Translations under genes and position numbers: made by a program
The notes under the pieces: model-generated
Seen by the model: the letters and a program-made list of their open reading frames with translations, nothing else
Database searches by the model: none
Told to the model about the DNA's origin: nothing
DNA from: Marchantia polymorpha subsp. ruderalis
Lineage: Eukaryota > Streptophyta > Marchantiopsida > Marchantiales > Marchantiaceae
DNA: 64,000 nucleotides
Direction of reading: 5' to 3'
NCBI GenBank assembly: GCA_037833965.1
Contig: AP031354.1
Span: forward strand, 12,812,001 to 12,876,000
Shown here: in pieces, positions 2,481 through 61,613 of the stretch
Position numbering within the stretch: position 1 is the first letter of the stretch
How the letters are laid out: each line of letters opens with the position of its first letter

Positions 2481-3593
2481 TGAGATTATTTCTTAATCGG
2501 AGTTAATGTCAACACTGTTAGCTAAATCTATTTTTTAAGTTTAATTTATCTGGTTAACAAGACATTTTTAAATCATATAAAGCATTATTGTAGCCATAAA
2601 TCATAAATCAAATTTAAGTTGAAAAAAGAATTATAGATTGAGATGCCCTTACATTTCATGTTTACTCAACTATATCAAACATTTTAATTTTTCAAAAATG
2701 TTTGATATAGCTTTTATTATTCCAAATGTTTCTTAAAGCTTACTTATATTTTAAATCATTAATTTTTGCAACTCAAAGCTAAATGATAATACATTTAAAA
2801 TTTAAATTGGACAATGATTTACATTATGTAATATAACTAGAAATAGAAGATGAAATTGTTTTCAATATGTGCAGATCATGAAAAAAAAATGTTTTTTATG
2901 TATATGAAGACAGCGTAAACTTCTAGTCTACTCGTTCATAGACCAAGACAACATAAACTAAAAGCTTTGACGTACCAAAAACACAATTGAGTTTGTGCAT
3001 GAAGAAATATCATATCTGCATGGATTAAAAGTCAATCATTGGTCAATTTGCCCGCAAATTTTCATTGTTGAACATTGTGTTTCGGTTTAAAGCTTTGTGA
3101 CTTGCTCAAAGTTGTGTCTTGCATAAGATTGTAGAGAATTGCTTGATATGTTGAACAACACTCAAATTCACATGACATGATTTACCACGATGTTGAAACG
3201 TGATGATCTTCGTACTAATTGAAGATCAATGAAATTGATTTTTGTGAATTCAAATCAAGAAGAAAGCATCAGCATGAAAGAGAGACAATTTGAGGTATGG
3301 ATTGAACTTGTGAATTTTCAACAAATTGCAAGCTCCACAAATATAAGCAATATTCAAACCAATAAAAGAAATTATAAACTTCCAGCCCGTTTGGTCTATG
3401 AACGAGCATACCAATGATGCAACAACAATTTGGACCAGATGACGGTCGGTTGTTTTCTATGCATCAATTTAGGCACTGAAACACGTAGCAATTTAGAGAC
3501 TTTAGGCGGCTGGGCATATGATCGTCTAAATTGCGCTTGCCTTTCCATGAATCAATGTTGCATAGAAGAGACAAAAATCTTCTTGGCAATATA
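2481..3593. other. AT-rich spacer
   Basis: Besides the inverted repeat at 2671-2709, I see no credible gene. Open frames at 3229-3417 and 3430-3672 have no recognisable motif or splice context. Confidence 0.5.
2671..2709. repeat. Short inverted repeat (15-bp arms)
   Basis: TATATCAAACATTTT at 2671-2685 is mirrored by AAAATGTTTGATATA at 2695-2709, with an AT-only loop. It is surrounded by AT-rich spacer and no gene is adjacent. Confidence 0.7.
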
Positions 3594-3979
3594 CATGAAA
3601 GGGGGCTCATACTCCTATGCTGCTGATTTTCTTTTTCCACCCTCTCCCCCTTATGTCATCCCCTCCCTTTAATTCTCACCACCTCCGTCTCCGCCTTTTG
3701 GATTTCCCCCTTTCCTTGTAGCGTCACACCATGAAGCCCCCTCCCGAGGTCACTTACGACGATGTCGATGTCTTGAAGCCTGCTTACGTACAGCACGGTG
3801 TCGCTCATCTCTATAACGTCAACACCAAGCTTTTTCCATGCTCTCCATTGTATAAGCCGGGGGCTAGGGCAAGACGTCAAGGAGGCAAATAGGCGTCGGG
3901 GAAACGTAAAAAGGTGTCATGGAAGAAAGGAGGGTGGAAAAAGCAAATCAGTAGAATGGGAGTATTAGCACTCTTCATG
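3594..3979. mobile_element. MITE-like element with ~55-60 bp terminal inverted repeats
   Basis: The left end reads CATGAA, then GCTCATACTCC, then TGCTGATTTTCTTTTTCCACCCTC. The reverse complement of the right end reads CATGAA, then GCTAATACTCCC, then TACTGATTTGCTTTTTCCACCCTC. The arms match over roughly 55-60 bp with scattered mismatches. The 386-bp element has no transposase frame, so it would be non-autonomous. I could not find a clear target-site duplication, so the superfamily is open. The internal minus-strand frame at 3656-3880 is not credible as a gene. Confidence 0.65.
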
Positions 3980-6070
3980 AAATTAAGAGTACTTGCAAAA
4001 TTTTGTAGATTTTGATGGATCATTTTATCTTAGACATCTTCTAGATGAAAAATATATTTTAAAATGGTTATATTGTGTAATCAAATCTCTCCTTATTCTC
4101 GTAAACTAAGTTGATCATATATGCAAGTATGATTAATAAATACCCCATTTTTTTAAGGAAGAAAAATTATTAATAAGTTTATTTCTTCAAAAGATATGTA
4201 AAAATAACTTTTTTGCAAATATCAATTTTCTTATTTGTTGAATTATGGATATACAAGATGTTTGATTTTTTACTGTTATAAAGAAATAACTTTATGGAAT
4301 TAAGAATGATATATTGAACAGCTTGATAACAATAATATCATAGATTCTATGATGTTTTGTATCATATATTAACTACGAATATCTCAGTATACATTGCATA
4401 TAAGTGGATGAGATTCATATGAAAAAAAATCTTGCTCTATGCTTGAGTAATATGTAGACTATATGAATATTTCAGCTACAATAGTACATATGATCCATTC
4501 TGATAATAGCGGACTTACTGCCATCTTATCAATGTATGATTCTATGGAATGTTCTTAACTTTTAACTTTTAGCTTTTAGCTTTGTGATTTAGTTTTCTCT
4601 AGTACTTACTCAAATGTTCATACATATGACAACTGACATTTTCACATCAACCCTCATGTCTATTCAGGTATGTGTATCAGATAGTTTGACAAGAAATTTT
4701 ATCGTCCTTTTTTATTTATTGGATTCTTGTTCCAATGTACAATAAAGGGTGGGCAGAAGACTAGGGATCAGAGAGGGTCTCATGGGTCCAACATTTATAT
4801 CCCAATGCTAATTTTATGTAAAAATTGCTTTGGAATGAATGGAAGATTCTTGCTCATAGCAGCCTTTATGTAGAAGGAAATTTTAGGTCTCTTCAAAAGA
4901 CCACTACACTAATTGGGGTGATGCACCATAATTTAATCTTACGCTATATTGGACAAACTGCTTTGTTGCTGTCGAAAGTATTAAAGTACTAATGTTCTTC
5001 ATTTTCACAGATCTCAAATTTAACCGATTAAAGATCAATCATATAAACCCATCATGCATTTCTTAAGTAAAATACATGTCAGCGAAATATCTCAGACGAA
5101 ACTTTAGATCATGAGTGTTTTATTTTCGTAAAAGAAAGTCAAGATAAAAGGAAGAAGAGAGTTAGAAAATTAAAATACTTTTTCAAAGAACCTGATATGA
5201 ATAGGTATAAGGGTGTTTCATTTCAATTATGATTTTGATGAAGTAAACCACAAAATTAAAATAATTTTATGAGTGTGGGGTTGATTTTTCTTTTTTCCAT
5301 TTTTCAAAATTTAGTGGTATATTTAAACACACAGGCGAGTGACACTTTCCGTACATTAGGATACATCTCTTATAACTAGTTATCTCCACTATACAAGAAT
5401 ATCACCACTTTGGTTTTTTTTACAAAGTCTTGATAAGTTTACAGATTCCTTTTGTCAAGGATATTCATAATCATTCTTGAAAGATTGAACCATATACAAC
5501 TTGTCTTACAGCTAATTTTTTTCCCCTTTATGTGCTTAAAATTTGTATGTAATCTTGATCGATTTCATATGATTCATTCCTATTTACAAATGATGATGAT
5601 GTAATTTTCTAAAATCAGCTATTCCACTATGTAAGAAAATAAGTTGGTAGATTTGCGAATCAAAATGACGAATTTTGGTACTTCAATCGTACCTGACAGA
5701 TGGAATTTATTAAAACCTGAGTAGTTGTGACCCTATTAATTTCTGGTCTGATGTTAAAATTATTCACAGTATCGATCTTAGCTTGCAGTAATACAAACCG
5801 GGATGTGGAGAGTCGCATTGATCGTTTCATGTATGCTATGTTTCAGAGTTTTAGCATTTATTTTGAATTGTAATATACTTCGGGTTGTCGTAGATGACAT
5901 GCTGAAACACGTAGCCCTCATGCGCAGGGAGGTGACACCCAAGAGTGAGTGACGCATTCAACAGCGCGACCAATTTAGAGACTAGAATTTGATGCACGAT
6001 CGATCTACAATCAACGTGTCCCTGTATTAATTTTAGATTAAGGAGGATCGTTCTCGCTGCTGAAAGTCGC
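3980..6070. other. AT-rich spacer without recognisable genes
   Basis: The stretch is rich in A/T homopolymers and has no open frame with family motifs or splice structure. Some of it may be old retroelement sequence, but nothing is firm enough to name. Confidence 0.5.
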
Positions 6071-7641: not shown

Positions 7642-10600
7642 CTAAGATGAAGCACCTGGACCTAGAGGGGAGAAGGAAAGCATGGCACGTGGTGCGAAGA
7701 TAGGCGACTGGGATCTTATTGTTGATCGAGGGACCCTGGCTTCAGGTGTCACGGACGATTTCGGAAGATTTTTGGTATCAGAAGGAGGTTTGGGTGGAAG
7801 GCTGTGACTATGCTGCTGCGGCTCCTTGACAATGACCGGTGGTTCTGCAATGGGACCCCCGTAGAAGATGGATGTTCCACTGTATACAAGGTTATCGGGT
7901 ATAAGAGACGAGCTGGGCAGACTAGGAGACACATCGTGTGTCGAAGTGCTTGTCTGGGAAGGAGAAAATCGTTGCGACGGTGAATATCTTCCAGCAGCGT
8001 ACTCAGAGGATACTGGATCATCGGAAAGAGAAGAGGGTGTTGCGGAGGGCTCAGGCCAAGCACGTCTGCTATTTTGGGTGTACACTGAGGTACTACTCGT
8101 TCCGGTGTGGTCGCCTCCATCGCCTCTGCCGCGTGCTTTAGGAGGATTGTATCTTCCTGAAGACCTGTCCCAGTACAATGCAGCTTGCTTTCCTTCCTTC
8201 ACGGATAAAGTAACGTGATCTGGGAGGACTCTTCCTCTCGATGGATACTGATTGATGCGAGGGAGAGCTGCATCGTCTGCACTCTCGCCACTAGAAGCTT
8301 CATAACCATCACTGGAAGCTGCTGGTCCACTCCATGCTCGTGAGAAGTCTGCGGAGGAATGAGACAATGCTGATGCATGGTGGGCAGGCAAATGCGTTCT
8401 GATGTGCGAAGCGCCCACCATGATAACCGGTGCGCCTACTTCTTCTGGATTTCTGGTATTAGGCCCAGACATCCGCATCCCGGAGGTGGACGAAGAAGGT
8501 CCAAACCTGCGCTCTGCAGGAAGAGGGCTCAAGGTAGTAGAATCGGTAAGAGTGTGACTAGGACTACTGCCGCTGCTTCTACTGCGATGTCCTAAGTCGG
8601 TGGGTTCATAATGAACACTAGAATCATCCCGGGTGGTGCGAATGGCAGGGAGGTCAACTTTTACAGATCCCAAAGACGAATCATCCCTGATCCTCCGTTT
8701 ACTGTTCAGATAGTCAGCACTCATGCTGCTTCTGCTACTCATGTTACTGCTCGAAGTGTATTCCCCTTCCACAATTCCATAGTCCCGGGGACCTAGTTGA
8801 CGTAAGATCGAAGAATTTTCCCGAGCCTTAGCGGCAGCTCGTGTTGCGTCATCTGCGTTAAGCTTTGCCAGCTTCCACGCGCTGATTCTCACCGCGCCTT
8901 TCTTGTGCCTGTTGTCATGTCTAGTAAGCGCACTTCCAGCGTCCGGGTCAATAGTCGATGGCACTCTCCCTGGCCCCAAATGAGGGACGACTTCGTCCTG
9001 CAATTCATAAACTTGGGAATTACTAATAGATTCGAAAATGCTAATTGGGGTCCACAAATTACAGAATCGCACAGCTAGAAATCAAAGCTTTCATCAAGAT
9101 AAACCAGCTCACACATGACGTACTTGGTGCTCAACAAACACTCTCGGGGGTGTACACCAGGCACCCCGACTGTATTGAAGTCCCAGTGAACTGGAACCAC
9201 TTAACCCGGTAGCAGTCGAACTCGAAGGAGAAGTTGGGATGCTATGGGGTTCTCCATCAATAGACAAGCCTTGCGGCTCGTTTTGTGCTCTCATCGCGAC
9301 TACATACTCATAAGTTGTTATTCCCTGGATGCAACGAACACGACATTGAGTTCCTCAAAATCTCACTTGCTATTTGCATCTTTTGAGACGACAGGACCGG
9401 TATCATCCGAATTTTCTGCAGCCTCGCATTAATAATATGGCCCTGTACGACTATTTCAAGCGGGTCTAGAAATCATACCTTTCTGATCAAGATCAGGTGG
9501 AAGAAAAAGAGTTCTCCCAAGGGTATGGAGGCAAGGAGCGAAACCAGTGTACAGATGGCCTGAAAAAACAAGTTTGGCGTACTTAGTCCTCCATGCTCCT
9601 GATATAAGAATCTCAAGTAGTGCACAACATGTCCCCGCTCAAACGTCGCTTGTAGGTTACAAATACTGCTTATCGACGATGTCATCGACCTCCTCGCTAC
9701 GCTGTCTATCGAACGTGGACGTAGAAACCATGGATACATATTAAAAATACCGTTGAGAATCTCAATTGGTATACACTCCAGATTAGGGTGCTGCCTCATT
9801 GCGAGTAAGACATCACTTTGAGAGAAACTCACCACTACTGTGGCGAAGGGTGCTCGAGAAAAGCCGTTGCCAAGTTTATCGATGATTTGATGTTCTATGC
9901 CTCTCTTATCAACGAAACATCGCACTAAAACGGCGATTCCGACTCCCCACTCGAGCACCAGCTGTAAGCACCATGCGAACCCACCATTCATCACTTCACA
10001 CATTAATGAGAGAGCCAATAACTACCTACAGAGCCTCGTGATGCAAGTTCGTTGTTGAGAACATTGTGGTGACAACTCTCTCTAACAGCTCATGGTATTC
10101 CAATCAGTACAGAATTCACAATAAGGAGAGATTTTTGAGTTCCCCCAAACCTCCGGGAGTAGTTTCTCTCAGATCTAAGTAGAGACAAAGCTTTGCTTAG
10201 AGACTCACCAGCGTAAGGCTTGTCGCCATAAGGGCTACAAATGTATTATAATTTTTCCTTCCAACGCAATTATTCAGCCACTGCACAACACAAACAAAAT
10301 TTTGATTACAACTAACTCAACCGCCCAGTATCTACAGCATGAAGTGAATTGGCAAGCACGGAAAAGAACAACGATTGTTAAATTGTTACTGGGTAATAAG
10401 CATACTCTGCAATGGTGATCAAAGCCGTCAACACACTTATCGCAGCTTCGACAGTGCTTGCTGAATTTGCGAACCTGCGAGTCGATAGTTCGGAGGCAAA
10501 TGTCAAAATCCACTTCTTCAAATTCTACACAGAATGGACAAAAGTACCAAGGCATGCGTGGGACGTGTAACGGGATTGCTTCCACCGATACTAATTCTAC

Positions 10601-24020: not shown

Positions 24021-27000
24021 TCATGGAATATTCGAGGCTTTAGCTTTCCTTATTCGAGCCTTGCTCCTCTTTCGGAAGTTCATGAACCAATTCGAAACCT
24101 GCAAAAAATTGAGAAAATAGTTCTCTTATCTTTCATCCATTAATAGTGATAAGAAAGTGATAATAGAGGGGCAAGTTACAGTCACAAGTATAAAATTAGT
24201 AAATTTGCAATGCTTCATCTTTATCTTTTCACTGATACAAGTCCGTCTTTTTCTCGGATCTTCAAACTAAATGCAGCGTTAGAATGTCACTTGTAAGCTC
24301 TTATTCCATCAACTGATTACTTTTCGGATGTTGCATACTATGCATTTGGAACCTTTTGAAGAGTGAAGCGTTATGTGTTGCTATAAGCAAGGTAGTGTCA
24401 CCCTAGAATATCTATAGCAAAATGCACTTACCTGCACATAGGTAACTCCAGATTCCTTTGCTAAATCTTCCCTTTGCTCCCGAGAGGGGTTTGGATGACT
24501 CAGATGTTCGGATGCCCATGTACTACGAGTTTCAGAATGCAAGTTGAAAAGTAAGAATGAGAACTTCATGGAAAGATTTACAGCAAAGTACATGTAAGTA
24601 CAAATCAAATTTCCCACAATAGTCCAGGCACAAATGGCTTCAAGAAACAGAGGTCAAATATGAAGAGGATATCATATTGTTTGGATAACGCCGAGAAATG
24701 AGATATTCATGGAAAAAGGCGAAGCAAAGAGTTATGTCACCTCAAGAGTCGTGTTGCCCGTGGTGGCAGTCTATTCGCCTTCTTCTTTCGAGGATCGTCT
24801 CTCCATTTTCTGCTCCTTTCGTTCTTGAACCAGTCCGAGATCTAGAGCACAATTTCAAGTGATGCTCATTTAAACAATCCTTCCGCTTTCGCGATGGAGG
24901 AAACATGCAACCTTTCTCTATAGATGGCAGCTATTCCACTGTAATAGATGTGAGGATGCTGGCAGTAACCTGTTGCAATGTAAGGTTGGTCCTCCGTGAC
25001 ATTTCATAGACTTCTCGTTGACTCGGATATGGAATGAGCTCATTCTTCTCCCACCAGGTTCTGTGGCAAAGGGGAGAGAGTGGTGGTTAAATGAATAAAA
25101 ATTCGGTACTTCGGCCTTGTCTTTTGAGCAATGTACTTGATTAATAGCTTAGGCGTGCCCTGGTCATCTAAATTCAAGCAAGGAGGGAAGCAAACGTTTC
25201 GAAATGTACTGACCTCAAGATTTGGAGCGATTCCGGTGTGTGGACCGACCTGGATCCGGTGCCTTCCAGCTCTTTACGTCTCGATGAAGTTAAAGATCCA
25301 GTGGAAGAGTCATCATTTGTATCGAGAATGCTGTTGGTTGCTTTAACATGGTCATCAACTGGTGCTGGCCTGGGAGTAAACTCCAATTGTTGAGAGCAAG
25401 TGGGGTGGTTAGATTCCAGCACCTCTCGCATACTGCCCTGAGAAATAGGAGCACTTGCAAATTCCTCTCCTCTGTTACAAGGCTCACAAGCCCTCATTTC
25501 AGTAACGATTTCATCATCTGGTGATGGTACAGGAGCCCATGCCAATTGGTCGGAGGAGCTATCCATGTCCATGTCCTTGTCCAGCACCTCCTCCACACAT
25601 CCTGGAGGAGAAGAAGCACTAACACAGACTTCTTGTGGGTCTTCAGCTTCACAGCCCCTGACTGCATTAAGATTGTCATTATCTCCTGATGGGACGAGAG
25701 GCAATTCTGGTCGTTGAGAGCAGCACGCAAGGGTGGCCAACACCTCTTCCACGTATGTTTGAGGATATGGAACAGGCGAAAGCACCTCTTGTGAGTGACG
25801 AGCTTCATAATCCATTGAGTCGTTCGACGCCTTGTCAAAGGGAAAGATTTGATTAAATACATCTTCGACGAGAAGTTTAACATTCGTCGATGATGCATGC
25901 CCCAAGGAACTCAAAACTTGTAGAAGATATTGTTGTCCCACTACCCAATGATTACCCTGCTCAAACTCATGATGTGTATCTCGCTGGCATAGTGGAACTT
26001 CAATTACTTGCTGCATGTCCTCGGCATGAGATGCCTTTTGAGCTGTGTTGTCAAGTATTGCTTGTGCTTGAGGTGTACACATGGATGGTGCTTTCAATCG
26101 GTGACTAAACTCCATATGCTCAGAGTCAGATGCGAATCTTCTTTCCAAGTTAGAAGCATCATCCCCAGCACTTGAATCAAGTAGCATTCCTGGTTGCGGT
26201 TTACATGTTGTTGGTGCTTCAAATTGTTGATCAAACTCCAGATGTTGATTATCAGAAACTAATCTCGTATCCATGTTCAAAATAACACCTGAAGTTTTAA
26301 TGCCAACCGATTCTTCAGCTGTGAAAGCAACTAACCCTTCTCGTTGAGATGTGCATGTTGTTGTCGGTTCTTCTAATCCGTGACCATACGCCATATAATC
26401 GATATCAAACACGAAGGTACTTGCTTCGTCGTTAGAAGTAGAAGCATTGCAGTAAACCGATTCTTGAGCTATGTGATCATCTAAGACTTCCTGTTGAAGT
26501 GGACAGGCTATTGTTGGTGCTTCTTGTCGGTGACCTAACTCCTGATGGTGAAAAGCAGTTACGATCCTACTGTCCACGTGAGAAGTACTACCCCAAACTT
26601 CGGGGTGAACTGACTTTTGACCAGTATCTCTGTAGTCAAAACATACTGGCGATTGAGGAGTGATTTTGGGTGGTGCGTTCAAGTGGTGGCCAAAGTCCAT
26701 ATGATCTGCAAGAGCAACGTTGCCCGACTGAGAGAATTCATCTCTCGGCTGATCTTCAGGAACACACATTCCAAAAGTGGATAGATATGTCCAAAGCTCA
26801 TCCACCGTGGGTGAGTGAAGTTCGTGATTGTCGGTGTATGTCGTCGCTTCAGTGGTGTGTTTAGCGGACTTTATTGTGGTGCAATCATCAGCATTTTGAT
26901 GGTCAGATGAGTACTCACCTGTTGTGGCCATCCTCATTATGTGAGAAACCTCCACAGTATTGCAATCATACGCGAACGCTGAGGACTGCAGATTATTACA

Positions 27001-27729
27001 ACGAACTTGGGCCTGGTATGGAGGTACGAAGCCATACGTAGTTTCTGACTCCATGAGCCAAGAGGAGTCCAGAGTGGAACAGTCGAACTCAATTGGTTGT
27101 TGAGTTCCGAAACCTGAACTTGTGGTAGCTGAATTTATGAACTCTGAGCTTTCTGAAGTACTGGGATCCAGCCAAAGTTGCCGGTGGTCTCCGGAGTAAA
27201 AAGTGGCGTCAGCTCCAGTGAATGGAGGAGGCACTACTGTTCTGCAATAGTCCCCAATCTGTACGTAAGGAGTAGACTGCATGGCCTCCGTAGGGCAGCA
27301 ATAATCGGACATAAAACCGTATGCAGAGGCCAAGGACTCTGATGTTGCGTATCCATTTGAGGTTCGTGCTTGACGCAAGGAAACGAATGTGGTAGGTGCT
27401 TCCAAGAACGGAGATGAAGTTATGGAGTTTGTTGGTTCCATCTCCCCTGAGAAGCTGTCCATGATGAAGCCACCTGGTGTTCGTGGAGCATATAGCTGAC
27501 CGTCTTCGAAGCTATTATGTCCCGCCACAACATCCGCATTCCCTCTGTCTACCTGATCCCCACTAGCACCATCTGGTCTGCATTCCTCAGAAGAAGAAAC
27601 CACCAAAACGTGCGCTCTCGCCCCAATCTGCATAGACTTATCCCCGTCATTCGTACCAGACGTTCTTCCATCTGCCTGCTCACTTGGGTCGGAAAAGAGG
27701 CTGTCGACCCAATCAAGGAACTCTCCCAT
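24021..27729 (-). CDS. Double TALE (BELL-like) homeodomain protein with acidic internal repeats, 958 aa
   Basis: Predicted nuclear transcription factor. Coding exons on the minus strand: 25214-27729 (ATG 27729), 24970-25060, 24741-24841, 24432-24522, 24021-24098. Phases agree throughout. ATG 27729 is chosen because a splice acceptor (CTTTCTGCAG) lies 11 bases upstream, at exon start 27740, implying a 5'-UTR intron. Residues 1-820 are acidic, S/T/E-rich and unlike any domain I know, with repeats at about 340-540 and 635-815. TALE homeodomain 1 spans about 823-885: RTWWEKNELIPYPSQ has the three-residue loop extension with PYP, and ISDWFKNERSRKW is helix 3. Homeodomain 2 spans about 887-949: STWASEHLSHPNPS, then VQVSNWFMNFRKRSK; HPNP and QVSNWF resemble BELL proteins. 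Both keep the W-F-x-N-x-R core. No SKY/BELL (POX) or KNOX domain is visible. Context gives no functional clue. Confidence 0.88.
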
Positions 27730-29047
27730 CTTCGACTCTACTGCAGAAAGAAGTGAATGCACTCCTGAAAAGCAGACTCCAGAGCAGCGAAGAAGAGCGG
27801 AGGTGGGATTATGGAAAGAGGAGTGTATCACGACGATGAGGAAACCCAGAGACTGGAAACTCATCAACTGGAAAGCAGAGGTCAAAACAGGGCAGATGAA
27901 TGAGGAGGATCTCACAAAATTGAGCAAGCCCGGAGAATTAACTTCTCACTAAGTAAACTCATCGATCTTTGTAGACTCTTTCGAAAGTGAATCTTGACAG
28001 CAGATTGATGGGTTGACACATTCTTCCATCGGTCACAGATCATATATCCCTCTCCATCCTTTCCTTAATAATACTGAAGCATTACGCAGTAATCACTTGA
28101 CATCCATCCTTGGTTCAATAATCCGTAGGCAATGTCAATCAGCCAGAGTCGACCCCTCCTACTTCTCTCTTCCTACATGAGAGATTCTCCCTACCTGAGA
28201 GACTTATATGTTATTGGACATTCCTACGAAGCAGGATCATGAAGCAATTCAATACAAAGTTCAATCGTCAGTCAAAGTTGCGACCAGTTGTTGCTGTCTT
28301 CTCTTCAGATTGGGAAGAATCTCTCTACAAAGGACGCACTTTGTAGAGATATTCCAGAGACTCCAAACTGGATGAGAAATCTTTTATGATTGACTGTTAA
28401 TTGTAAATGAAGAGATGATGAAGGTGAACCTCATGATCTGTGGACAGACAACGGTAATTGTGGATATTTTAGGTTCGACCGAGTTTTACTATCGAAGATG
28501 ACTACCACCTCATCGTAACTTCTAAACTCCATCAATCTTGCAAAAGTGCATTTGGTATTGATAGACAGGAAGTGCATCATCGATTCACTTCAGTAATGTC
28601 AATGAAGATGCAAAAGCACACAACTGATATGGATGAAATGAACGGCGAGTATGTGGCTAGCCCCAATCACGTCACGTAATCGTACCACGAGAGAATATGA
28701 AGAATCATCCACTAAAGACGATTACAAATATTTGAAGTGTTCTGTTGTAATAACTAGGCGTCCAAGTAGTGAACCAAAAAGTTTGGCAAGACCGAGTCAA
28801 GTCTATTAACGCTATGCTCCAATAATATCACAACGGGAGTGATATACTTTTGCATGTAAAATTGCGAATAATAACTCTGTGTAATATGGTAGACTCTCGT
28901 GGATATCCCATGCACATGTCAAAGTTATGCGTATTCCAGGTCACGAAGACAAAAAATTGCTTTCTTACTCTAACTTTATAATTCAACACGTGGCGTATAT
29001 AAATGTATGACCATTCAATGTATTGCGTACAACATTGATAATCCGAC
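27730..29047. promoter_or_regulatory. 5' leader/promoter side of the homeodomain gene
   Basis: Minus-strand transcription enters from here. The acceptor at 27741-27742 implies an upstream non-coding exon whose 5' splice site I could not fix. The open frame continues past 27740 to 27927 on a TTG codon, but I read that part as intron. No TATA box or other clear promoter element was found. Confidence 0.35.
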
Positions 29048-42106: not shown

Positions 42107-45037
42107 ATATTCAATAGGGAATGTTTCTATTAGTGACGGCATTGGAAACTAGTGCCCGTATTATAGACCTTGCATAGATCGAACTCCCATAGCATGTATT
42201 TGATGTTCAAACTTGGGGGAGGCAGCGGTTTAGTGAGTAAATCTGCAGTGTTATTGTCCATATGAATATAATCAAGCGCTATCTCCCCTTCCAAAACACG
42301 TTCTCTAATAAAGTGATGTTTTGCCTCAATGTGCTTGGTTTTAGCATGAAAAACTGGATTTCGAGCAAGTTTGATTGCACCCTGATTATCCCAGGATAGA
42401 TGCATGTAAGCCTTGGTTGGAGTAGCAGCGGTCTTGAGGTCTTGATGAACTTGGCTGTCGGCACAGCCGATTGGAACTTGAGCTGGAGGCAGTTGAGCTC
42501 TTGAAGCAAACGTCGCATGTAGACAGCCTCCTTGGCATCCTCGGAAAGCGCCTTATATTCTGCTTCGGTAGTAGTGTGTGAGACAGTGGGCTGTTGCTTG
42601 CTTGCCCAAACAATAGTTCCAGAACCGAGTTGGAATAGGTAGGCACCAATTGACCGCCGAATGTTTTTTTCAACTGAGATCATCTGCATTTGTGAAACCT
42701 CGGAGCTGTAAAGGAGTGCCACTCTGGTACAAAATGCCATAGTACTTATGTATGTGAATCAGAGCTAGCCAGTGTGATTTCTTAGGGGAATGCATGAATC
42801 TACTAACCAGACTCACAGCATATGAGAGATCGGGTCGAGTATGACATAAGTAGATAAGTTTACCAACCAGGTGACAAAATTGGGATGCATCAACTGAGGG
42901 CGCAGAGTTGTCAGCCTCAAGAACAATACCCATTAGTAGCGGAATGGTCTCGGTCATACCATCAAAGATGCATGCGTCAGACAACAATTCGATTGTGTAC
43001 TTTTGTTGATGCAAAAATAGATCACCATTAGCGGACCGGTTAAAGTCAATCCCAAGGTAACGATTGATCAAACCCAGGTCTTTCATCTTATACTTAGCAC
43101 CCAACTGAAGTCTGATTTCTACAACTCTCGTGTTACTACTGCCGAAGATGAGAAGGTCATCTACATATAGCATGAGCATAGTAATTGTAGAACCTTCTCG
43201 GAGAAAATACAAATTCAAATCAAGGTGGCTACGGTGCCAGTCAGAGGTACAAAGGTAGGTATCTATCTCGGCATTACATTCTCTGGGGGATTGTTTCAAG
43301 CCTTATATGGATATGAGAATACCACATATCTTGTCTTCGTGACCCTCAACTTCAAAACCGGGAGGTTGTTGCATATATACAACCTCCTTAAGCTTTCCAT
43401 TAAGAAATGCAGTTATAACATACATGTGGTGGATGTCCCTTACTAGAGATATTACAAGGGCAATCATAGCTCGCAAGGTAGATCAGCAAATGACGAAAGC
43501 AAAAGTTTCAGTTGAAGTTGACACCAAACCGTTGCTCAGATCTTGAGCAACCAATCTGGCTTTTAATCTAATGCGCTTAGCGTTGGTCTCTTGATTGGTT
43601 TTATAAAACTAGGAGAGTGTAGAGCCTTGCATCCAGGGGGAGGTGAAATTAACTCCCAGGTCAGATTTCAACCAAGGAATCAAACTCTTCATGCATAGCA
43701 CATTGCCAGCCTTTGTGATGTTTAGCCAAATTGAACAAACTTTTATCATCCACCATCTAAGTTGATTTGACCAAGTTAAGAAACTTCTTACGTGTCATGT
43801 GAAATTGATCGTAGTTACTAGGCAGCGTGCGATTTTAGAAGGGATTGCGCCTTGGTATTGTGCCGTGAGAAGTTGATAACAACTTTGCCGATGATTGAGG
43901 GTAGCTCGCAGAAAGATCATGAACCTCTGATGGAAGAAATTTTGGCCGTGGTGGTGATGCCAGACTCGTTGTGGGCAGCTCGGTCACCGGTTTGTCTTCG
44001 TAGTCATCCATATCACAAAAGACATCAGAAAATTCATGTTGGGCCTTAAAAATGCATGGTGTGTCTTCAAAGAAACCAACATCGTTGAAAATTACTACCT
44101 TACTAGCAGTTGGGTTCCAACAACGGTAGTCACGGAAGTTTTCATCATAACCAAGTAGTACTCCGGGAAATGCTTTTACCTCCGATTTAGTTTGCTTTGC
44201 CTGAAGTATATGCACGTATACAACGCATCCAATTGTTCAAAGATGTGAAAGATTGGGTACACAAACAAACATATTTTTGCAGGTAGTAGACAAATGTAGT
44301 GTTTAAATATCACGTCTATTACGTACATAGTTGATCGCTCGTATTGTCTCTGTCCAGAGATGGGCAAGGAACTTACAAGAGTTGAAGATACATCAAGCAT
44401 ATTCAATAAGTGTACGAATCTTTCACTTAGATTCTCCATTCAGATGCGGAGTGTAGGACGTAGTCAGTTGGAGATGGATGTCTTTACTAGAAAAATAGTC
44501 TTCGAAGGAAGTCGAGGTGTATTCGTTGCTTGATGTGAGCAAATGTTGGAGACTTTATGTGACCAGTCATGGTCACAAAAGCTAAGATTAGCAACCTTAT
44601 GCGGAAAGGAAGTTATCACAAGGGCAACAAAATGTTGGAACAAGGTAAGAGTTTCGCTCTTTGGCTTGAGAAAATACAACCAGGTAAATCGTGAAAAACC
44701 CTCGGTGAAAGTGAGTACATAACACCAACCAGTAGATCGTAGCGGACCACACAGATTGCTATGTATGAGCTCGAGAGGCTTGATAGCTCGTTTCGCTAAT
44801 GTCTTCACCTTGGTAGAGCGATGATGTTTGTTGAGGACACAATATTCACATTGTCGTTCCTTCTCGACCTCTAGGTAAGTCACGACATCCACAAGATTTT
44901 TTTCAATCATGTGGTGGGCAGTCTGATAATTCAGGTGACATATTCTCTTGTGCCACAGATCGGTAGAGTCCACATGCGTCGAAGGGATTGATGGGATCTT
45001 AAAAAAACGCCAACAAATTCGGGAAGATTTGGAGGGC
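42107..45037 (-). mobile_element. Ty1/copia retrotransposon, 3' part (integrase to RNase H), degenerate
   Basis: Going leftward on the minus strand, it starts with the GAG-pre-integrase zinc motif (LWHKRICHLNYQ, later CEYCVLNKH) and integrase core (~44.5-44.98 kb). An integrase tail follows near 43.9-44.2 kb. Reverse transcriptase has YVDDLLIFGS near 43.16 kb and VGKLIYLCHTRPDLSYAV near 42.85 kb. RNase H has VSHTTTEAEYKALSEDAKEA, then HIEAKHHFIRE and TADLLTKPLP, ending near 42.13 kb. TGTTAGAAG at 42107, read on the minus strand, looks like the start of the 3' LTR. Multiple frameshifts and stops make it inactive. Its 5' part continues at 51103-51410 beyond the inserted chromovirus. Confidence 0.85.
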
Positions 45038-59116: not shown

Positions 59117-60470
59117 GGACGGATGAATTAGCACGCGCAGCGAGACCTAGGGAGTGGTCCATACCTTGACCAGAAGGAGCAGGTTGCCGAAATTCATCGT
59201 CTCGCTCTGCACTCCGGTGCCGACATTGAACTGCACTCTGAAAGGAACACGGAGACGCGAGCGACTGGGCAGCTCTGGGACCTTGCATGCAGTCGGGGAC
59301 GGGAGTGCGGATGAGATTTTATTCTCTGCTCTGCTGCTGACATCAGTCAGGAGCTCGGAAGTACAGGGCCTCCGCGATCTGTGTCGATAAGGTTATTACG
59401 AAGGCCGGCGGTGACGACTGACAGAAGCTCTCGCATGCTCTGCTCGTTGCTCTTGTGATCGACCTCTCTCGTGCCTGTCTACGGCTTTTGCCCTCGTGCG
59501 GGGTCGGGTCCCGTCCCATCCCATCCCATCCCGCCGTGCCTTGGCCTTCTCCTCCTCGGGGGCCGAAGAAGGCTTCATTGGGAGCCGCGATGGGGACATT
59601 CCGCATCGTGTGCGCAATTTCGGGCTCGAGGCATTGGGAGACAAATTCTCTCAAATTGAGTTTGCATTCGCCATTTGGGGCCAGTGCTGGCAGACGAGTG
59701 ACTGAGTGCATGTGTCATGCGCACCAAATGCACCATTTGGGACCTCGTGCTCTGCCCGTCGAATTCTGTCACTGCCAGTAGCTGGGACTCGGCCCATCAG
59801 AGTTCCACGTGGCCGTACGATTGGGTGGGAAGGTAGGTCACGTGGTCAACCACGCTGACGAGGTCAACGAAAGAGAGACAGACAGACAGACAGACTCTGT
59901 GCGCCCAACGCGCTCAAGGATCCCGGGTAGATGTCCCCGATTTGAATTTCCAGGTGCGCAATTCGATCTTCTTCTTCGTCGCCGAAGAAGAATCGTCCTG
60001 TCGAGAAAATTCATTCGAGCAAAGCTCCGAGCAAAGTCGTCGGCTTGGGAGTCCGAGTGCCAAGCAGGACAGGGCACCATCGACTTCCTGAATGAATGCT
60101 TGGATGGATTGATAGATGGATTGATGGGTGGGTAAATTCCAGCGAATTTGGAAGAGGGTCTTCAGTCGAGTGTCGACCCGAATAGCGATAGGTACATACA
60201 TTTGCAATCCGCAAATCATGTCACGCACTCGAGTTGTTTGAACGGGAAGATCTGACGAGAAGTTAGTTCCAGAGTCCCAGGCTTTGCAAGGAACGATCGA
60301 TTGCCTACCTACCTCTCTGTAAGAATGCGGAGGGGAGCATCGCATTGCACGGCTCAGAGGCCCATTGCCTCGAGCAACATGCGGACGCTATGGACCTGAC
60401 AGCGTCCGCCGACATGCCTGTTTCGGCCTGAGGTCTGACTCCGAGAGGAACCGATGGTGGGGTGGTGCAG
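58406..60470. promoter_or_regulatory. GC-rich leader/promoter region of the GONST3-like gene
   Basis: The ~2 kb upstream of the transporter contains a 93-bp CT tract (59022-59114) and short uORFs next to the start codon. Frames such as 58605-59288 (-) consist largely of the CT/GA repeat read as RE or SL repeats and are not genes. No TATA box was identified. Confidence 0.4.
59022..59114. repeat. Long (CT)n microsatellite
   Basis: About 46 uninterrupted CT units, 1.4 kb upstream of the GONST3-like start codon. Read on the other strand it is a GAGA tract, the target type of plant BASIC PENTACYSTEINE factors (family knowledge). Confidence 0.92.
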
Positions 60471-60474
60471 ATGA
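60379..60474 (+). promoter_or_regulatory. Cluster of three short uORFs before the GONST3-like start
   Basis: ATG 60379 encodes MRTLWT-stop. ATG 60390 encodes a 13-residue peptide ending at 60431. ATG 60454 encodes MVGWCR, whose TGA (60472-60474) overlaps the main ATG at 60471 and abuts the second ATG at 60474. They matter only if the transcript starts upstream of 60379, which is likely but unseen. Confidence 0.5.
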
Positions 60475-61613
60475 TGGCTGGCGGGGAGGGGCAGAAGGGC
60501 AAGGGCGGGGGCGAATCCGTCGAGCTCACGGCCGGAGAGCAGCAGGTGTCGAATGCGCTGACGAGGGGCAAGGACCGGGCCATGGAGTGGCTGGGGGGCC
60601 AAATCTCGGTGTTCGGCATCGCCATCGGCTACTGCCTGTCGGCGTCGCTGCTGTCGATCATCAACAAGTGGGCGATCATGGTGTTCCCGTTCCCGGGGTC
60701 GCTGACGGCGCTGCAGTACGCGACGAGCGCGGGCGGAGTGTGGCTGTTCGGCATGGTGCGCCTGCTGGAGCACGACCGCCTGAGCCTCAAGACCATGTGG
60801 AAGTTCCTGCCGGCCGCCATCTGCTACTACCTCTCGCTCTTCACCAACAGCGAGCTGCTGCTGCACGCGAACGTCGACACCTTCATCGTCTTCCGCTCGG
60901 CCGTGCCGCTCTTCGTCGCCATCGGCGAGACTGTCTACCTCAAGCAGCCGTGGCCCTCGCTCAAGACCTGGGCCTCGCTCGGCGTCATTCTCGCCGGCTC
61001 CGTCATCTATGTCGGCACCGACTCGCAATTCAAGGTCGAGACTTACGGCTGGGCGCTGGCGTACCTCGCCAGCATGTCGATCGATTTCGTCTACATCAAG
61101 CACATCGTCATGACCATCGGGCTCAACACCTGGGGCCTCGTGCTCTACAACAACCTCGAGGCGCTGCTGCTGTTCCCGCTCGAGCTTCTGATTATGGGCG
61201 AGGGCATGCAGCTCAAGCACTCGAGCGACGACCACTCGGTCGACTACACCTCCATGACCGTGTGGTTCCCCGTGGCGCTGTCCTGCCTCTTCGGCCTCTC
61301 CATCTCCTTCTTCGGCTTCTCGTGCCGCAAGACCATCTCCGCCACCAGCTTCACCGTGCTCGGCGTCGTCAACAAGCTGCTCACGGTGGTCATCAACCTC
61401 GTCATCTGGGAGCAGCACGCCTCCACCATCGGGACCATGGGCCTGCTCATCTGCATCGGAGGCGGCGTCCTCTACCAGCAGTCCACCGTCAAGCCCAAAG
61501 CTCCCCCCGCTGCGCTCGCTGCTCCCAAGACATTGGACGCGGACGAGGAATCTGTTCCTCTAGTGCAGTCGCAGGATGTGGAATCTGGAGGCAAGAAGGC
61601 GTCCCACGCTTAG
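60471..61613 (+). CDS. GONST3: GDP-sugar transporter, GONST3-like, Golgi membrane, 380 aa, intronless
   Basis: Member of the drug/metabolite transporter superfamily (NST/TPT branch), expected to exchange cytosolic GDP-sugar for luminal GMP across the Golgi membrane. About ten hydrophobic spans follow a glycine-rich cytosolic N-terminus. Diagnostic stretches shared with plant GONST3 are CLSASLLSIINKWAIMVFPF, SLFTNSELLLHANVDTFIVF, RSAVPLFVAIGETVYLKQPW and SIDFVYIKHIVMTIGLNTWG. GVVNKLLTVVIN near residue 310 is close to the GALNK-type nucleotide-binding motif. The C-terminus is hydrophilic with acidic and Ser/Lys residues and ends GGKKASHA. ATG 60471 (or 60474) is used because the open frame upstream starts only on GTG. 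Codons end almost always in G or C, unlike the AspRS gene. Which GDP-sugar is carried cannot be told from sequence. Confidence 0.93.
   Translation: MMAGGEGQKGKGGGESVELTAGEQQVSNALTRGKDRAMEWLGGQISVFGIAIGYCLSASLLSIINKWAIMVFPFPGSLTALQYATSAGGVWLFGMVRLLEHDRLSLKTMWKFLPAAICYYLSLFTNSELLLHANVDTFIVFRSAVPLFVAIGETVYLKQPWPSLKTWASLGVILAGSVIYVGTDSQFKVETYGWALAYLASMSIDFVYIKHIVMTIGLNTWGLVLYNNLEALLLFPLELLIMGEGMQLKHSSDDHSVDYTSMTVWFPVALSCLFGLSISFFGFSCRKTISATSFTVLGVVNKLLTVVINLVIWEQHASTIGTMGLLICIGGGVLYQQSTVKPKAPPAALAAPKTLDADEESVPLVQSQDVESGGKKASHA

Follow-up and report, generated by a model that had tools for sequence, protein, structure and literature searches.

A Marchantia polymorpha gene with two adjoining TALE homeodomains that is very probably MpBELL2

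Layout of the locus

The minus strand of the window (the whole 64-kb stretch of DNA analysed here) carries a gene for a predicted protein of 958 residues that ends in two adjoining TALE homeodomains. Five coding exons between positions 27729 and 24021, joined at GT...AG introns by predicted splicing, give a coding sequence of 2877 nt. The splicing and the long N-terminus of this model are both inferred from the sequence. An acceptor-like TTTCTTTCTGCAG ends 11 nt upstream of the ATG. What a preliminary description of this DNA called exons 4, 5 and 6 corresponds to exons 3, 4 and 5 here, presumably because a 5' non-coding exon was counted there. The gene has the following features.

25214..27729 (-): coding exon 1, with the ATG at 27729, an N-terminus of ~820 residues and the first codons of homeodomain 1
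24970..25060 (-): coding exon 2, 91 nt, homeodomain 1 from helix 1 to just short of the helix 3 core
24741..24841 (-): coding exon 3, 101 nt, running from the last part of homeodomain 1 (ISDWFKNERSRKW) through a basic linker into homeodomain 2
24432..24522 (-): coding exon 4, 91 nt, homeodomain 2 from helix 1 to just short of the helix 3 core
24021..24098 (-): coding exon 5, 78 nt, VSNWFMNFRKR... and the stop codon
24794..25263 (-): homeodomain 1, residues 823-885, over three exons (PF05920, 45.4 bits, E 7.4e-12)
24051..24790 (-): homeodomain 2, residues 887-949, over three exons (PF05920, 50.5 bits, E 1.8e-13)
26050..26709 (-): degenerate repeats 42-53 residues apart, residues ~341-560, with a motif like HMEFxHRLxAP, found by self-comparison
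25330..25752 (-): three more degenerate repeats, possibly a second set, residues ~660-800, found by a weak motif match

Other features were seen elsewhere in the window. An open frame at 60432-61611 (+) belongs to the triose-phosphate-transporter family (PF03151, 56.7 bits), and a fragment at 42673-43302 (-) encodes a reverse transcriptase domain of the Copia type (PF07727, 72.3 bits). At 7645-9081 (-) lies an open frame of 479 codons for which Pfam gave no match with E <=1.

The two homeodomains and their duplication

Both homeodomains lie within the last 136 residues of the protein, and we recovered them at the same residue numbers as the preliminary description. Each exceeds the Pfam cut-offs (24 bits for PF05920, Homeobox_KN, and 22.9 bits for PF00046) when scored alone. 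With PF05920, the whole protein reaches 78.6 bits; with PF00046, homeodomains 1 and 2 score 34.7 and 36.3 bits and the whole 958-residue protein 57.6 bits. The second block, for which a profile search had been proposed as a check, is therefore a homeodomain according to both profiles. As described before, the helix-1 tryptophans (W841 and W905) are 64 residues apart, and the spliced sequence contains the TALE three-residue loop in both domains, as PYP in the first and PNP in the second. The earlier statement that homeodomain 2 is complete only after splicing also holds in the five-exon model, where its pieces sit in exons 3, 4 and 5. Among the best 60 of 92 matches in a PDB search, block 2 was similar to MEIS and PBX homeodomains and block 1 to TGIF.

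The core DNA-contact residues W48, F49, N51 and R53 are retained by both homeodomains. Positions 47, 50 and 54, which are named as affecting specificity in PMC8476127, are D, K and S in homeodomain 1 and N, M and K in homeodomain 2. Since these positions differ, the two homeodomains would be expected to differ in sequence preference. We estimate from the sequence that helix 3 of homeodomain 1 and helix 1 of homeodomain 2 are separated by ~12 mostly polar or basic residues, and the stretch joining the two domains thus appears to be little beyond the usual N-terminal arm. Canonical plant BELL and KNOX proteins have one homeodomain. They share the TALE homeodomain and its three-residue loop with the window protein but carry POX or KNOX1/KNOX2 domains, whereas a Pfam scan of the window protein at E up to 1 gave no match to POX (SKY/BELL) or to KNOX1/KNOX2 (MEINOX).

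Introns interrupt homeodomain 1 at residues 838.67 and 869.0 and homeodomain 2 at residues 902.67 and 933.0. Both positions thus recur exactly 64 residues apart, with phases 2 and 0 each time, and the two middle exons are both 91 nt long. Because the intron positions repeat at this distance with equal phases, the layout bears the signature of a tandem internal exon duplication, which would have doubled a three-exon homeodomain. The two copies are ~30% identical from helix 1 to helix 3 and their synonymous distance is saturated (dS ~3), so this duplication is old.

Double homeobox proteins such as DUX4 are not of the TALE class, and the doubling in DUX4 is therefore independent of that in the window gene. 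DUX4 has a role in zygotic genome activation, and with its two homeodomains it lies on two neighbouring half-sites. It resembles the window protein in having two homeodomains per chain: among the matches listed, DUX4 PDB chains span both blocks, from residue 2 to residue 119 of the 132-residue pair (best E 1.3e-6), although over this stretch the DUX4 chain exceeds the window protein by 8 residues. A search with residues 700-958 against a large protein database, which may hold few plant proteins, returned 1001 candidates, none of them at E <=0.001. The homeodomain pair was also used to scan viral contigs; a pattern match was seen in 14 stretches, none of which was a relative. Literature phrase searches for plant proteins with two homeodomains found no papers, and a term search of PMC6219170 gave no passage about doubled homeodomains.

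Chromosomal position and related loci

The preliminary description had implied that the tandem homeodomains were new. This part of it did not hold, as the doubled homeodomain of MpBELL2 had been published in 2021 (Dierschke et al., PMC8476127), and the presence of more than one TALE homeodomain per liverwort protein, in genes of zygote activation, is thus already on record. According to the excerpts of PMC8476127 used here, which list five BELL genes for M. polymorpha, MpBELL2, MpBELL3 and MpBELL4 have two or three homeodomains. The extra homeodomain of MpBELL2 is ascribed there to intragenic duplication, MpBELL3, 4 and 5 have three exons per homeodomain, and upstream homeodomains are progressively less conserved. 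MpBELL2 is described as a much smaller, truncated protein of only two homeodomains, and MpBELL3 and MpBELL4 are reported to give rise also to shorter transcripts, which start at internal promoters. The same excerpts state that MpBELL2/3/4 are expressed in antheridia, that RT-PCR for MpBELL2 gave no product from the tissues tried, and that interaction with KNOX1 was studied by BiFC with BELL4, a short BELL3 and BELL1, not with BELL2. Single mutants had no phenotype, and when MpBELL2/3/4 mutants of both sexes were crossed, the zygotes or embryos obtained all aborted or became arrested (PMC8476127). In the accessible text of PMC8478417, gamete-supplied KNOX1 and BELL3/4 promote nuclear fusion, and 20-40% of zygotes homozygous for Mpbell3/4 still form embryos.

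We compared the position of the window gene with those of other TALE genes, using gene numbers taken from the accessible text of PMC8476127. Seven other TALE loci of the genome follow the published order, with contig C(n+1) corresponding to chromosome n. The KNOX2 anchor at C8:7.41 Mb has a homeodomain and a KNOX1 domain. The KNOX1 anchor at C6:2.87 Mb has a homeodomain match, and a KNOX domain search picked up none there; the two loci were assigned to the KNOX1 and KNOX2 classes by eye. On C9 we found three BELL3-like homeodomain exons at 3.34 Mb, four BELL4-like matches at 9.75-9.79 Mb and a BELL1-like homeodomain exon at 23.06 Mb. Three of the seven matches in the BELL3 and BELL4 regions reach the cut-off, one of these only together with its neighbours. 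By the C(n+1) rule, KNOX1A and KNOX1B, which lack a homeodomain, should furthermore lie on C5 and C3, respectively. KNOX domains unaccompanied by a homeodomain match were seen at C5:16.17 Mb (above the cut-offs) and at C3:12.09 Mb (two domain matches, both below their cut-offs). Scaling by hand from KNOX1A (Mp4g12450), with a gene spacing per tag unit of between 1.09 and 1.79 kb, depending on the anchor, places Mp4g09650 at ~12.5 Mb, and the window gene lies at C5:12.836 Mb. Since the anchors equate C5 with chromosome 4 and the gene is found near the expected position, it is very probably MpBELL2 (Mp4g09650) of the BELL-gamete group, an assignment made by gene order. The earlier guess that the gene is one of the divergent liverwort BELL genes is therefore very probably right. 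MpBELL5 (Mp5g11060) was not found in the homeodomain searches of this genome.

A tree calculated from 11 homeodomain rows of this genome had no well-supported branch among its eight inner ones, and we therefore claim no kinship of homeodomain 1 or 2 to any other row. The tree was calculated without BELL1, whose helix-1 exon was not found in the stretch examined, and without the BELL4-region matches at 9775021 and 9754328, for neither of which a third exon was found; the third exons of the remaining BELL3/BELL4 rows were chosen by pattern and by eye. A strict pattern for the third homeodomain exon occurred in 5 places (1 in the reversed control), a loose one in 14 (6 in the reversed control). 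Three weak matches of equal score (14.6 bits) at C5:12407590, 12461770 and 12515935 are ~54.2 kb apart, possibly because large tandem repeats are present there, about 0.3-0.4 Mb ahead of the window gene.

Another locus with two adjoining homeodomains extends from C8:6,342,033 to ~6,342,904; the exon immediately upstream holds the first homeodomain codons. It scores 35.3 and 31.1 bits with PF05920 and 31.7 and 13.7 bits with PF00046, the last value being below the cut-off. Its exons measure 97, 110 and 91 nt, the intron phases are 2, 0, 2 and 0 as in the window gene, and the tryptophans are 69 residues apart. The tandem-homeodomain locus occupies bases ~4841-5904 of C8:6337001-6346000, on the equivalent of chromosome 7, and its homeodomain 2 has WC in place of WF. 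Two open frames, of 172 and 351 codons, are located upstream of it. This gene is absent from the five BELL genes listed in the accessible text of PMC8476127.

MpBELL3 (Mp8g02970) and MpBELL4 (Mp8g07680) resemble the window gene in that they are described as large proteins with two or three homeodomains of three exons each (excerpts of PMC8476127). At C9:3.34 and C9:9.78 Mb, where similar exons were seen, erosion of the homeodomains is stronger than in the window gene, and kilobases separate some of these homeodomains in the genome. At the BELL4 position (C9:9754328-9789681), four homeodomain-like exon matches of 16 to 24 bits, one of them at the cut-off when taken with its neighbours, are spread over 35 kb. 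Set against the two or three homeodomains published, they could be parts of one long gene, relics, or two genes. In the BELL3 region (C9:3343001-3352500), an open frame of 557 codons at bases 3549-5219 lies between the BELL3-like homeodomain exons; it has runs rich in alanine and glycine as well as a tandem repeat resembling AGHPQPHAGSPPPA.

The predicted long N-terminus and the proposed function

The stop-free run that encloses exon 1 spans 923 codons (25174-27945, including the stop); 72 of these codons precede the ATG and ~12 extend into the first intron. The longest open run in all six frames of 60 Markov-1 random windows was 234 codons. The frame has a coding-like bias, with G at 35%, 15% and 20% of codon positions 1, 2 and 3. 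Of the N-terminal repeats, the set at residues ~341-560 gave a best 20-residue self-match of 63, as opposed to at most 39 in 5 shuffles; for the second set, the value of 37 is inside the shuffle range of 29-39. The dN/dS ratios indicated no clear constraint in either set, being ~0.5-0.75 in four of five pairs and >1 in the fifth for the first set and ~1 in both pairs of the second. One further repeat pair gave no dS. Taken by its coding features, the long N-terminus is read by us as real. By description, MpBELL2 was published as two homeodomains only, whereas the window gene has ~820 open codons upstream of the homeodomains in the same exon; in chromosomal position, in the number of homeodomains and in the intragenic duplication the two agree (excerpts of PMC8476127). 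The 958-residue model therefore does not match the small MpBELL2 unless the annotation is short or transcription begins inside exon 1.

A start at one of the in-frame ATGs at residues 720, 722, 745 and 767 would reconcile the long open frame with the published protein. If the two-homeodomain protein came only from a short transcript starting within exon 1 (e.g., at Met767), the upstream frame would be untranslated or belong to another transcript, as could be expected from the description of MpBELL2 as small and truncated and from the internal promoters of MpBELL3 and MpBELL4 (excerpts of PMC8476127). We regard this as a real possibility but tend to doubt it, given the length of the stop-free run relative to the random windows, the codon-position bias and the repeats that are visible at the protein level in this frame, even though dN and dS of the repeats reveal no clear constraint.

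The homeodomains themselves allow other readings. Homeodomain 1 could be a decaying relic, with DNA bound by homeodomain 2 only; this would agree with the decreasing conservation of upstream homeodomains noted in the excerpts of PMC8476127 and with the slightly lower score of homeodomain 1. However, homeodomain 1 is far above the cut-off and retains its PYP loop together with W48, F49, N51 and R53, and we consider its decay rather unlikely. Among the BELL3/BELL4-region copies with a chosen third exon, F49 was lost in all five and N51 in three; erosion in that group thus looks different. Far less probable still is that the two blocks are never joined, with transcripts stopping after exon 3 and homeodomain 2 being an artefact of prediction. 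An in-frame TGA does follow directly past exon 3 (24739-24737), but the two pieces of homeodomain 2 occupy separate exons, whose GT/AG borders agree in place and phase with those of homeodomain 1 and of the C8 gene, and multi-homeodomain genes of this kind are reported in the accessible text of PMC8476127. Taken together, we consider it highly probable that the window gene is the MpBELL2 of M. polymorpha (or of a very near relative), a gamete-expressed BELL-type TALE factor whose homeodomain was doubled by exon duplication.

To the antheridial expression and the joint role of MpBELL2/3/4 in zygote activation, both taken from the literature, our analysis adds the sequence, the exon layout, the identity of the homeodomains and the position. 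BELL2 protein made in sperm-forming cells would enter the zygote and there may pair with KNOX1 from the egg. The complex would bind DNA through one or both BELL2 homeodomains and help to start diploid gene expression. Homeodomain 2 probably provides the canonical TALE binding, and homeodomain 1 may add affinity or a second half-site. By analogy with DUX4, a single BELL2 chain could lie on two neighbouring half-sites.

What looks new beyond the published text is the long N-terminus of MpBELL2 and the unlisted similar gene on C8. As a tentative reading, to which we give not quite an even chance, MpBELL2 would be a full-size gamete factor of 958 residues whose N-terminus bears repeats, and M. polymorpha would possess at least one additional BELL gene with tandem homeodomains, on the chromosome-7 equivalent. 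The arrangement would then predate the split of these genes and would have been maintained as a DNA-binding unit in the zygote activators of liverworts. Should the C8 gene prove to be expressed, it would be a candidate source of the redundancy for which PMC8478417, in its accessible text, leaves room because a fraction of the Mpbell3/4-homozygous zygotes still make embryos. A genuine long N-terminus would mean that the published account of MpBELL2 has to be corrected, and the mutant alleles of this gene may then have to be reinterpreted.
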